From NCBI RefSeq assembly GCF_003002955.1, contig NZ_PVTJ01000002.1, positions 806,001 to 870,000 of the forward strand: a stretch of 64,000 nt of DNA. Direction: 5' to 3'. Source of the DNA: Glycomyces artemisiae. Lineage in GTDB: Bacteria; Actinomycetota; Actinomycetes; Mycobacteriales; Micromonosporaceae. This document shows positions 34,968 to 49,001 of this stretch, piece after piece; the stretch's first letter is position 1, and the number at the start of each line of letters is the position of its first letter. Both the position numbers and the translations under genes were made by a program. The notes under the pieces are model-generated. The model did not search any database. It was not told the DNA's origin and saw nothing but the letters and a program-made list of their open reading frames with translations.

Positions 34968-36725
34968 ATGTTGCGAGCACGACGACCCGCAACCGGCGCC
35001 ATCGGCATCGGCGCCGCCCTGGTCATGATCCTGGGCGGCACCACCGCCTGCGGACAAGGACAGGCGGCCGGCGACCCCGGCTTCGAGGACTGCGCCACCG
35101 ACCCCGTCTCCTGCAACTCCGGCGAACGCGCCGACGGCGGCGAGATCACCTGGGGCATCGACGGGTCCTGGACCGGATGGAACCCCAACCTGTCCGCCGA
35201 GTACACCGTCTACACCCTCCAGGTCACCGCCCCCTACTGGCCCGCCGTCGGCCAGTTCGACCAGAACGCCGACTTCGTCGTCAACGACGCCATATTCGCC
35301 GGCGAGCCCGAACTCATCAACCAGACCCCCATGCAGGTCGAGTACACCCTCAACCCCGACGCCAACTGGGGCGACGGCAACCCCATCGGCCTCGACGACT
35401 TCACCTACACCTGGTACGCCCGCTCCGGGAACGGCGACCTCTGCAAGGACTGCACCCCCGCCGCGGCCACCGCCGCCGACGTCGTCTCCATCGAAGAGGG
35501 CGCCACCGCCGACAAGATCGTCATCACCTACAACGACGAGTACGCCTCCTCCGAATGGAAGTACGAACCCGTCCTCTCCAACCCCGCCCACATCGCCGAC
35601 GAGCAGGGCCTCGACTGGAAGCACGACCCCGCCGACATGGCCGCCGCCGAGACCTACTTCTCCCAGACGGTCCCCACCTGGTCGGCCGGCCCCTTCAAGA
35701 TCGACGACGCCGCCACCGGCGACTACGCGATCTTCACCCCCAACGAGGACTGGGCCGGCTCCACCGAGGTCACCCTCGACAAGCTCACCCTCAAGTCCTT
35801 CGACTCCCTCGAATCGATCATCACCGAGATCCGCCAGGGCACCGTCGACGGCTCCAGCCCCGGCAACATCAGCGCCGAGAACGTCGTCCAGCTCGTGAGC
35901 GAGGACGGCATCAACTTCAACGTCGACCGCGGCCCCCTCTGGCACCACATCGACATCAACGTCAACAACGAGTTCCTCTCCGACCCCGTCCTGCGCACCG
36001 CCGTCTTCCAGGCCATCGACGTCGAAGAGATCATCGCCCGCACCTACGCCAACGTCCAGTCCGACGCCGCCCGCAAACTCAACCACCTGTACCGCAACGA
36101 CTCCGCCAACTTCCAGGACCACCTCACCGCCACCGGCCAGGGCGCCGGCGACACCGAGCAGGCCCGCGACGCCCTCCTCGACGCCGACTACTCCTGGAAC
36201 TCCGACGGCAAGCTCCTCGACCCCGAGGGCGAGCAGGTGACCTTCAACTACCGGTACGCCGACGGCTCCGACGACCGCCAGACCATGGCCGACCTCGTCG
36301 CCTTCAACCTCGCCGACATCGGCATCGACGTCGAGCTCAAGCCCTTCCCCGCCGCCGACCTCGGGCCGACGCTCGACCAGTCGAACTTCGACATGGTCGC
36401 CTTCGGCTGGACCTCCCAGCCCGTCATCGTCAACTCCGCCCGCCAGTTCTGGGCCTCCGACGCGCCCACCAACTACGGCCGCCTCGACGACCCCGAACTC
36501 GACGCCCTCATCGACGCCCTCGCCCTCGAACCCGACCCTGCCGAGGCCGCCGAGATCGGCAACCAGATCGCCGAGCGCGTCGTCCAGGACGCCTACCAGC
36601 TCCCCCTGGTGAACACCCCCGTCGCCATCATCGCCACCCCCGAACTCGTCAACGTCCGCGACAACTGGGCCTCCCAGCAGCGCGCCCTCTACAACGTCGC
36701 CGAATGGGGCATCAGAGCCGAATAA
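34968..36725 (+). CDS. Oligopeptide-type ABC substrate-binding lipoprotein, paralogue 1
   Basis: A 585-residue SBP_bac_5 (DppA/OppA-like) lipoprotein with a Sec-type signal and lipobox at Cys28. Four further cysteines are likely disulfide-bonded outside the cell: C42/C49 in DCATDPVSC and the pair in LCKDCTPA. The ligand cleft regions are standard (WGDGNPIGLDDFTYTWYARSG; TWSAGPFKI). It is most like paralogue 5, sharing GERADGGEITW near the start and VRDNWASQQRA near the end. GAGGAGA precedes ATG 34968. A 15-bp terminator follows, so it is probably transcribed alone, upstream of four more paralogues and one dppBCDF. Confidence 0.9.
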   Translation: MLRARRPATGAIGIGAALVMILGGTTACGQGQAAGDPGFEDCATDPVSCNSGERADGGEITWGIDGSWTGWNPNLSAEYTVYTLQVTAPYWPAVGQFDQNADFVVNDAIFAGEPELINQTPMQVEYTLNPDANWGDGNPIGLDDFTYTWYARSGNGDLCKDCTPAAATAADVVSIEEGATADKIVITYNDEYASSEWKYEPVLSNPAHIADEQGLDWKHDPADMAAAETYFSQTVPTWSAGPFKIDDAATGDYAIFTPNEDWAGSTEVTLDKLTLKSFDSLESIITEIRQGTVDGSSPGNISAENVVQLVSEDGINFNVDRGPLWHHIDINVNNEFLSDPVLRTAVFQAIDVEEIIARTYANVQSDAARKLNHLYRNDSANFQDHLTATGQGAGDTEQARDALLDADYSWNSDGKLLDPEGEQVTFNYRYADGSDDRQTMADLVAFNLADIGIDVELKPFPAADLGPTLDQSNFDMVAFGWTSQPVIVNSARQFWASDAPTNYGRLDDPELDALIDALALEPDPAEAAEIGNQIAERVVQDAYQLPLVNTPVAIIATPELVNVRDNWASQQRALYNVAEWGIRAE

Positions 36726-36736
36726 TGTTCACGCGC

Positions 36737-36769
36737 AACGGGGCCGGAGTCCGCGACTCCGGCCCCGTT
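36737..36769 (+). terminator. Terminator after binding protein 1
   Basis: A perfect 15-bp stem (AACGGGGCCGGAGTC and complement), CGC loop, then CTTTG. It is one of the strongest terminators in the window. Confidence 0.85.
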
Positions 36770-36870
36770 CTTTGCCGGAAACTCCCCGAAAACGGACCCC
36801 CCAGGTGTAACGATGTTCCAGTCGCGCCCCTCGGCGCGGCCCACAAGGGAGCAACAGGGGGAGTGGTCAT

Positions 36871-46816: not shown

Positions 46817-46818
46817 GC

Positions 46819-47961
46819 ATGGCGAACATCTCGGTCTCCACCAGCGACAAGGGCCGCGCCACGGGCACCAAGGGCGACACCGTCCTGGCGGTGAAGGACC
46901 TCGCGGTCGGCTTCCCGACCGACGACGGCCTCGTCAACGCCGTCCGCGGCGTCTCCTACGAGCTGCGCCGCGGCCAGAGCCTCGGCATCGTGGGCGAGTC
47001 GGGCTCGGGCAAGTCGGTGACCTCCATGGCGATCATGGGCCTGCTGCCCAAGACCGCCCAGATCACCGGCTCGGCGAAGCTCGAAGGCGAGGAGCTCCTC
47101 GGCCTCGGCGACGCCGAACTGTCGCGCATCCGCGGCAAGAAGATCTCCATGATCTTCCAGGACCCGCTGACCAGCCTCAACCCGGTCTACACGGTGGGCT
47201 ACCAGCTCGCCGAGGCGATCCGGACCCACTACTCGGACATCTCCAAGTCCGAGGCGCGGGCCCGCTGCATCGACCTGCTCGACTCGGTCGGCATCCCGAA
47301 CCCGCAGCAGCGGGTCGACGCCTACCCGCACGAGCTGTCGGGCGGCATGCGCCAGCGCGTCGTCATCGCCATCGCGATGGCGAACAACCCGGACGTCATC
47401 ATCGCCGACGAGCCCACCACGGCCCTCGACGTGACCGTCCAGGCGCAGGTCCTCGAAGCCCTGGAGAAGGCCCGCGAAGAGGTCAACGCGGCGCTCATCC
47501 TGATCACGCACGACCTGGGCGTCATCGCCGGGCACACCGACGAGGTCCTGGTCATGTACGCCGGGCGCCCCGTCGAGCACGGCTCGGTCGACGAGATCTT
47601 CTACCAGCCGCGCATGCCGTACACGCTGGGCCTCATCGGCTCGCTCCCGCGCATGGACGAGAGCCGCGACCAGCGCCTCACGCCCATCCACGGGACCCCG
47701 CCGTCGATGCTCAACCTGGCGCCGGGCTGCCCGTTCCGGGCCCGCTGCCCCATGCACCAGGACATCTGCGCGGAGGTCGAACCCGACCTGCTGCCCATCA
47801 ACGGCTCCGGCCACGTGGCCGCCTGCCACTTCTCGGACCAGCTCGAAGGCAAGGCCCCCGACGACGTGTTCGCGCCCGTCGCCACGGACCTGTCCGTCGA
47901 GGCCGAGGTGGAAGCCATGGACGCCGAAGGCGCCGCGGCCGCCGACGAGGAGGACAAGTGA
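46819..47961 (+). CDS. dppD: Oligopeptide ABC transporter ATPase DppD-type
   Basis: A 380-residue ATPase: Walker [10 protein letters not shown]-loop [12 protein letters not shown], signature LSGGMRQRV, Walker [14 protein letters not shown]-loop LITHDLG. The C-terminal oligopeptide-transporter domain has the cysteine pattern [14 protein letters not shown] with a later ACHF, which in some peptide importers holds an iron-sulfur cluster. It ends in an acidic tail ([19 protein letters not shown]). The stop overlaps the dppF start by 4 nt (GTGA). Confidence 0.93.
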
Positions 47962-49001
47962 ACGCCATGCTCGACACTCCGCAGACCGCGGCCAACCCGG
48001 TCATCGCCGGGAAGGACCTGGTCAAGGAGTTCCCCGTGCGCTCCAAGGGGATCCTGCGGCGCAAGGTGGGCGCGGTCCACGCCGTCTCCGGGGTGAACCT
48101 GGAGATCGGCGCGAACGAGACCCTCGCCCTGGTCGGCGAGTCCGGCTGCGGCAAGTCCACCACGGCGCGGCTGATGATGAACCTCATCGAGCCGACCTCG
48201 GGCCAGGTCCTCTACGAGGGCAAGGACCTGACGAAGCTCTCGCGCGCCCAGATGCGCCCGATGCGCCGCGACATCCAGCTGGTCTTCCAGGACCCGATGG
48301 CCTCGCTCGACCCGCGCATGACGGTCTTCGAGATCATCGCCGAGCCCCTGCGCGTGCACGGCCTGTTCAAGAACGGCGGCCGCGACCGGGTCAACAGCCT
48401 GATCGAGATCGTCGGCCTGAACCCCGAGCACCGCAACCGGTACCCGCACGAGTTCTCGGGCGGCCAGCGCCAGCGCATCGGCATCGCCCGGGCCCTGGCG
48501 CTCCAGCCGCGCGTGCTCATGCTGGACGAGCCGGTGTCGGCCCTGGACGTCTCCATTCAGGCGGGTGTCATCAACCTGCTTGAGGACCTTCAGGACGAGT
48601 TGGGCCTGTCTTACCTGTTCGTGTCGCACGACCTCTCGGTGGTGCGGCACATCGCGGACAAGGTCGCGGTCATGTACCTGGGCAAGATCGTCGAGGAGGG
48701 GACCACCGACCAGCTCTTCGCCGGTCCGGCCCACCCGTACACCCAGGCCCTCATGTCCGCGATCCCGCTCCCGGACCCGCGCAAGGAGCGGACCCGCGAG
48801 CGGATCGTCCTCCAGGGCGACGTGCCGAGCCCGTCGAACCCGCCTTCGGGCTGCCGGTTCCGCACGCGCTGCCCGCTGTTCAAGACGCTGTCCGAGGACC
48901 AGCAGGCCAAGTGCATCGACGTCGAGCCGCTCCTGCGGTCCGACCACGACGGCCTGACCCGCGCGGCGTGCCACTACGCGAAGAAGAAGCAGCTCGTTTA
49001 A
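47958..49001 (+). CDS. dppF: Oligopeptide ABC transporter ATPase DppF-type
   Basis: A 347-residue second ATPase: Walker [11 protein letters not shown]-loop [12 protein letters not shown], signature [10 protein letters not shown], Walker [13 protein letters not shown]. The C-terminal cysteine motif reads [22 protein letters not shown] with ACHY at the end. GTG 47958 overlaps the dppD stop; ATG 47967 is an alternative. A good terminator closes the operon. Confidence 0.93.

Follow-up and report, generated by a model that had tools for sequence, protein, structure and literature searches.

Organization of the receptor array

The 64,000-nucleotide stretch of the Glycomyces artemisiae genome analysed here (NCBI RefSeq assembly GCF_003002955.1, contig NZ_PVTJ01000002.1, positions 806,001 to 870,000), referred to below as the window, carries five paralogous lipoprotein genes, S1 to S5, which lie head to tail before a single permease/ATPase set, B, C, D and F (BCDF). 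The lipoproteins are substrate-binding proteins (SBPs) of the SBP_bac_5 family, and the locus is likely to specify a class C ATP-binding cassette (ABC) importer in which several interchangeable receptors would share one BCDF. This layout had been reported by a first-pass annotation of the same DNA, whose coordinates, lengths and similarities are correct. The genes are as follows, with positions counted from the first nucleotide of the window.

34968-36725, + strand, S1: SBP_bac_5 lipoprotein of 585 residues, S5-type; present in 7 of 17 arrays
36871-38556, + strand, S2: SBP_bac_5 lipoprotein of 561 residues
38803-40509, + strand, S3: SBP_bac_5 lipoprotein of 568 residues, twin-arginine signal
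40844-42559, + strand, S4: SBP_bac_5 lipoprotein of 571 residues, twin-arginine signal
42978-44714, + strand, S5: SBP_bac_5 lipoprotein of 578 residues, adjoining the permease
44887-45912, + strand, B: permease of 341 residues, BPD_transp_1
45905-46816, + strand, C: permease of 303 residues, BPD_transp_1 and OppC_N
46819-47961, + strand, D: ATPase of 380 residues, ABC_tran and oligo_HPY
47958-49001, + strand, F: ATPase of 347 residues, ABC_tran and oligo_HPY

All five S proteins match PF00496 (E-values 4e-39 to 2e-53; 135-183 bits against a gathering score of 32.4), and the domains of the permease/ATPase set (two BPD_transp_1, one OppC_N, two ABC_tran and two oligo_HPY) are those of the peptide/nickel class. 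By simple sequence patterns, a lipobox-like motif is present in 72 of 72 array proteins, and an RR pair no more than 10 residues from the start occurs in 17/17 S3, 16/16 S4, 4/7 S1, 1/15 S2 and 0/17 S5 proteins. S1 is 55% identical to S5 and 39, 36 and 39% identical to S2, S3 and S4, respectively, while the corresponding values for S5 are 44, 39 and 44%. In the window, S1 and S5 have in common extra N-terminal cysteines, a GERADGG stretch and the end VRDNWASQQRA, and S3 and S4 both contain MALTRRALGGL; the shared cysteines, the shared end and the near-identical S3/S4 start had already been pointed out in the first-pass annotation. The first 78 nucleotides of S3 and S4 agree at 60-74 of 78 positions within each of 16 genomes.

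Distribution in Glycomyces and descent of the receptors

The array is genus-wide in Glycomyces. A survey of 22 genomes of the genus (the source genome and 21 others; threshold E 1e-60) found B in 21 of them, each with at least one family SBP alongside. G003 and G012 have a single such SBP, G001 has two, and G015 and G021 have three each; eight genomes carry four and seven carry five, and G010 has no fewer than four. Two of the three family SBPs of G021 lie on another contig, and G010 has a further S1-like and a further S2-like gene on a separate contig, 0.75 kb from its end. The sole family SBP before BCDF in G003 and G012 is of the S2/3/4 type and not S5. Neither B nor a family SBP was found at E 1e-60 in G020, whose assembly comprises 3.3 Mb in 360 contigs and is 92% complete.

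Gene order is kept over 17 loci, namely the window and 16 named Glycomyces loci in which S5 identity is 62-86%; S1 is present in 7 of the 17 and S2-S5 in most, and in L014 the gene preceding S5 is S2-like. An order kept across the genus argues that the array is not a product of chance. B itself is 91-98% identical in the 13 named loci that are closest by this permease, whose receptors go down to 58% identity.

The descent of the receptors was followed in two trees, one of 77 rows and one of 63 rows, the latter rooted at the midpoint and including G177 and G023, from two other genera of the family, together with Nocardiopsis. The first tree forms one group of S1, S5 and Nocardiopsis and another of S2, S3 and S4. 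The second places 57 of 57 Glycomyces rows in one clade (support 99/98), split internally into (S6,(S1,S5)) (93/73), where S6 is an unlinked paralogue described below, and an S2/S3/S4 group (100/100). S3 and S4 are sisters that are incompletely separated, the gene at the S4 position of L013 and one G021 gene joining S3 (99/96). Nocardiopsis, G177 and G023 each carry one related SBP directly before BCDF, and at a second locus in G177 two SBP-like genes precede a more distant permease set. In Nocardiopsis sp. CNR-923, the receptor gene (L021:8187-9883) consists of two overlapping frames and is hence broken or misassembled.

Because all Glycomyces copies in the tree fall in one clade and the related genera examined carry a single such SBP, the sequences indicate that the array grew through duplication within Glycomyces and that S1 was lost or is missing in some members of the genus. 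Both trees recover the grouping of S1 with S5 and of S2, S3 and S4 together, and both support the repeated local duplication and divergence that had been suggested from the window. A search of 298 genomes of the order, in which at most four candidates per genome were scored, found S4 relatives (E 1e-40 or better) in 27 genomes, 8 of them Glycomyces; outside this genus, no genome of the 298 yielded more than two, and these lay far apart or on separate contigs.

One permease set and an unlinked sixth paralogue

The source genome (5.79 Mb) encodes 19 SBP_bac_5 proteins, 5 in the array and 14 outside it, and 12 of these 14 adjoin a B-like permease gene of their own. A search with the array B returned 15 places, two of which are C-type neighbours of others, leaving 13 B-like genes, and 12 of the 13 adjoin SBPs other than those of the array. 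ATPases or further permease parts were found in 11 of these 12 non-array regions; the region at C6:340 kb holds only a weak B-like match, with no further transporter parts found. Of the other B genes, those that score best share 32% identity with the array B, and none of the B-like genes exceeds 34% (over 134 residues). Since 12 of the 14 other SBPs sit beside their own permease gene, the array seems to be served by one pump. The first-pass annotation had likewise proposed a single pump, and no other complete permease sets that pair with four of the five receptors came to light among these genes.

No nearby B-like gene was found for two SBPs. One lies at C2:16.6 kb, in a region whose sole transporter match is ATPase-like (72 bits); the other lies at C1:689 kb, matches S5 at 504 bits and 44% identity, and represents an unlinked sixth paralogue, S6.

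G000:C1:689270-691018 (L066:4268-6079), - strand, S6: no permease found alongside

Orthologues of S6 (at least 74% identity) occur in 13 of the 22 Glycomyces genomes. An element resembling TATTCCTATCGTTT..GTTGAC lies upstream of S6; it can be recognised at 12 of the 13 orthologous loci, and the genome contains it once. The receptor set as first outlined was therefore real in its five linked copies but too small, as the family is larger and includes S6 in the same genome.

Pocket divergence and possible ligands

The closest solved relative of S5, in both fold and sequence, is EppA of Chelativorans (6wm6; PMC7312458), with 30% identity over 525 aligned residues. Its published pocket list was transferred through one distant alignment to 21 columns in 7 genomes and five receptor groups. 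Within groups, identity at the pocket columns is 0.903, compared with 0.819 elsewhere, a value reached by 0.5% of 5000 random draws; between groups, it is 0.443 at the pocket columns and 0.452 elsewhere. Positions 55, 56, 278, 415 and 464 vary between several groups and are mostly fixed inside them. This pattern modestly fits distinct ligands. The specialisation of the copies, previously proposed together with their duplication, is thus favoured by a modest signal of constraint inside groups, but the groups differ at pocket positions about as much as they do elsewhere.

Peptides are assumed here to be the ligands of the array receptors. None of the receptors reached the curated equivalog cut-offs of DppA, OppA or NikA (393-1098 in the matched families, compared with a best receptor score of 93 bits), so the designation "dpp" is no proof of a dipeptide system. 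S5 carries an aspartate at what we take to be the position that holds the peptide N-terminus in OppA. S1-S4 of the window lack an aspartate at this position and S5 orthologues are mixed (D, E, T, S), and the residue was not used as evidence for or against peptides. It is possible, although on balance doubtful, that the ligands are not peptides and are instead small molecules of another kind, such as aminopolycarboxylates or metal chelates. An EDTA (ethylenediaminetetraacetate) or chelate receptor of the EppA type was rejected as a candidate: despite the closeness of the solved structure, the four cationic EDTA contacts of EppA (R56, R74, K470 and R480; 6wm6, PMC7312458) are kept in none of S1-S5, in all five groups.

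Upstream blocks, leaders and transcription layout

The non-coding features of the array are listed below.

36735-36771, + strand, hairpin 3' of S1: 14 net pairs, not flagged in the terminator-like scan
38569-38602, + strand, hairpin 3' of S2: not flagged in the terminator-like scan
40575-40843, + strand, conserved non-coding block 5' of S4, by 50-nucleotide window invariance
40585-40617, + strand, S3-S4 intergenic hairpin: near-invariant sequence in 15/15 aligned species
42577-42613, + strand, hairpin 3' of S4: terminator-like
42741-42858, + strand, conserved non-coding block 5' of S5, by 50-nucleotide window invariance
44821-44886, + strand, conserved block of 66 nucleotides immediately 5' of B

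Upstream conservation was compared with the best 50-site run of four-fold degenerate sites in the same genes. The best 50-nucleotide window upstream of S4 scores 0.96 against 0.62 in 7 species and 0.76 against 0.36 in 15 species, and the equivalent values for S5 are 0.88 against 0.56 and 0.76 against 0.32. The 66-nucleotide block upstream of B is 0.82 and 0.58 invariant, a figure obtained without such a control; it contains the inverted repeat CCGGTC..GACCGG. About 270 nucleotides before S4 (40575-40843) are near-invariant in 15 species; this block includes TGTGNCAGTGTTTGTCACA, which is an imperfect palindrome, and the direct repeat TCACGAAT.

The leaders of S3 and S4 (38678-38802 and 40719-40843) hold possible complementary helix arms. 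The 3' arm, CCTCGG, is present in all 32 S3/S4 leaders, once in wobble form, some 30-35 nucleotides upstream of the start codon, and a 7-base 5' arm, GCCGAGG or GCTGAGG, lies 80-120 nucleotides upstream of that codon in 26 of 32, both counts being taken without a shuffle control. A near-invariant CTCCAG might mask the S4 ribosome site. RNAalifold proposes 66 pairs for the S4 leader, 5 of them with a double change in some sequence, and 27 pairs for the S5 leader, one of them with such a change. Because most of the pairs vary little or not at all, explanations at the level of RNA and of DNA are indistinguishable.

A riboswitch or known leader was rejected: Rfam at gathering score returned only two tRNAs from the whole window, and the one loose match within 34600-45000 was far below the cut-off (E 0.74). 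A shared operator was also rejected: the S4 palindrome, the S6 upstream element and the S3-S4 hairpin are each confined to a single genomic site at the allowed mismatches, and no regulon was found. The near-invariance before S4, the helix arms and the possible masking of the S4 ribosome site would fit a receptor rack switched in part by cis elements of a new kind, but this reading is quite improbable; if true, such an element, whether an mRNA leader or an operator, would be new to actinobacteria and would decide which receptor loads the one pump.

Hairpins of at least 9 net pairs in the first 110 nucleotides past each stop were found after S1 in 5/7 loci, S2 in 14/14, S3 in 12/16, S4 in 17/17 and S5 in 2/17. 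A terminator scan requiring T-runs listed 10 sites in the region, compared with 6.1 (standard deviation 2.2) in shuffled sequences. The S3-S4 hairpin has nearly a single sequence in all 15 aligned species, with two compensated pairs in one species; it is single-copy in the genome and is missing in L013, a locus outside the 15-species alignment. The hairpin pattern, together with the conserved blocks upstream of S4 and S5, suggests that S5-BCDF is probably read as one unit and S1-S4 as separate units.

A proposed shared importer and its alternatives

In the proposed importer, S5-B-C-D-F would be the core transporter unit, S1-S4 would be additional surface lipoproteins, each its own transcription unit, and S6 would be another, encoded elsewhere. 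All receptors would be duplicates of one ancestral receptor located before BCDF, made and retained in the Glycomyces lineage. Their pockets would have diverged, enabling each to bind its own ligand set outside the membrane; every receptor would hand its ligand to the same B/C channel, and uptake would be altered by changing which receptor the cell makes. Gene content, the single closely related permease set, co-occurrence, descent, the hairpin pattern and the conserved blocks before S4 and S5 are read directly from the sequences; we infer the docking of S1-S4 and S6 to B/C, the difference in ligands, the separate regulation and the peptide nature of the ligands.

Several observations weigh against this model. 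The presence of only an S2/3/4-type SBP in G003 and G012 means that S5 as core receptor does not apply throughout the genus. The within-minus-between difference at the pocket positions is modest, being reached by 4.6% of random draws, and these positions were borrowed from EppA by a single distant alignment. The permease search used the array B as its only query, and divergent permeases may escape it. Upstream of the other receptor genes, conservation in 7 species does not clearly exceed the control (S1 0.78 against 0.76, S2 0.60 against 0.62, S3 0.68 against 0.64), and in 14-15 species it is only somewhat above it (S2 0.40 against 0.34, S3 0.38 against 0.26). The hairpin counts were made without a shuffle control in GC-rich DNA, with the gap between S5 and B as the sole comparison. 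The T-run scan lists only the S4 hairpin between receptor genes; the remaining hairpins may therefore serve to protect mRNA ends instead of ending transcription. Finally, a promoter-like site extends over the start of B (44874-44903; two sites in the region, compared with 0.9 expected) and could make B independent of S5.

A narrower arrangement, in which only S5, and perhaps S1, feeds BCDF while S2-S4 serve different permeases or are sensors with no role in transport, appears improbable. It would accord with the position of S2-S4 in a separate clade, at 44, 39 and 44% identity to S5, and with the solitary S6, which indicates that some members live without a linked permease. However, the 12 other B-like genes each have their own SBP alongside, the only family member found in G003 and G012 is of the S2/3/4 type and precedes BCDF, which indicates that this clade can serve this permease, and the genome without B has no family member found. 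Very improbable is a mere dosage effect, with copies that share one ligand and do no more than supply extra receptor: Borrelia and other bacteria do transcribe receptors above other transporter parts (PMC5736914), and the S3 and S4 starts are alike within each of 16 genomes (60-74 of 78 nucleotides), but identity to S1 is only 36-55%, pocket positions are near-fixed within groups and differ between groups (7 genomes), and the receptor groups are kept over most of the genus.

Other genes of the window

Upstream of the array, the window contains a family 11 glycosyl hydrolase gene (28212-29375) and an LppX/LprAFG-type lipoprotein gene (29461-30120) followed by a major facilitator superfamily (MFS) transporter gene (30110-31579). 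The lipoprotein and MFS genes (29461-31579) presumably resemble a mycobacterial pair.

Comparison with known multi-receptor systems

Pumps with several receptors have been described before in a few unrelated bacteria, and the concept is not new. The designation of the locus as a candidate undescribed system in the first-pass annotation is therefore not supported, as five receptors with one permease have been published for Pseudomonas aeruginosa, Borrelia and pneumococcus, and unrelated arrays of four or five receptors occur in 2 of 30 actinobacterial genomes. Among the papers retrieved in a literature search on Glycomyces, substrate-binding and ABC transporter, nothing concerned this particular array.

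One close parallel is DppBCDF of P. aeruginosa, which is served by five paralogous receptors, DppA1-A5 (PMC4206461, PMC12728205). Four of the receptor genes are clustered nearby and one lies elsewhere, the receptors are periplasmic proteins of a Gram-negative bacterium, and the region also includes regulator, dipeptidase and porin genes (PMC4206461, PMC12728205). Glycomyces, an actinobacterium, has instead five uninterrupted tandem lipoprotein genes and a sixth. Ligands are known for four of the five P. aeruginosa receptors (PMC4206461, PMC12728205), whereas those of the Glycomyces receptors are assumed.

The Opp system of Borrelia burgdorferi combines OppA1-A5 with one permease under independent regulation (PMC5736914). 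It resembles the Glycomyces locus in having several chromosomal receptor genes, of which oppA1-A3 can be transcribed together or singly; further receptors are plasmid-borne, and the receptors are differently regulated. Unlike Glycomyces, which has one permease set, Borrelia has a second permease pair, and regulation that has been measured in Borrelia is inferred in Glycomyces (PMC5736914). Pneumococcal Ami, with AmiA and AliA-D, likewise provides five SBP_bac_5 lipoproteins and one permease in a Gram-positive bacterium; its receptor genes are at separate loci and partly strain-specific (PMC11192437), unlike the tandem, genus-wide receptors of Glycomyces.

Among 30 other actinobacterial genomes, runs of at least two SBPs whose matched stretches lay less than 1.5 kb apart were found in five (G338, G323, G336, G334 and G325), and runs of at least three in two. 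G338 (L103) has the order SBP-B-C-D-F-SBP-SBP-SBP-SBP, with five receptors round one BCDF, and G323 (L104) has SBP-B-C-D-F followed by three SBPs, with four receptors. In these two arrays, unlike in Glycomyces, receptors flank BCDF on both sides and score at most 88 bits against the Glycomyces family model; they are independent of the Glycomyces array. Specific to Glycomyces are the long uninterrupted tandem, the genus-wide progression from one linked receptor to five, an unlinked sixth member and the highly conserved blocks upstream of S4 and S5. This natural series within one genus, in which the permease stays almost constant while the receptors diverge, is well suited to studying the sharing of one pump by several receptors and the specialisation of their pockets.

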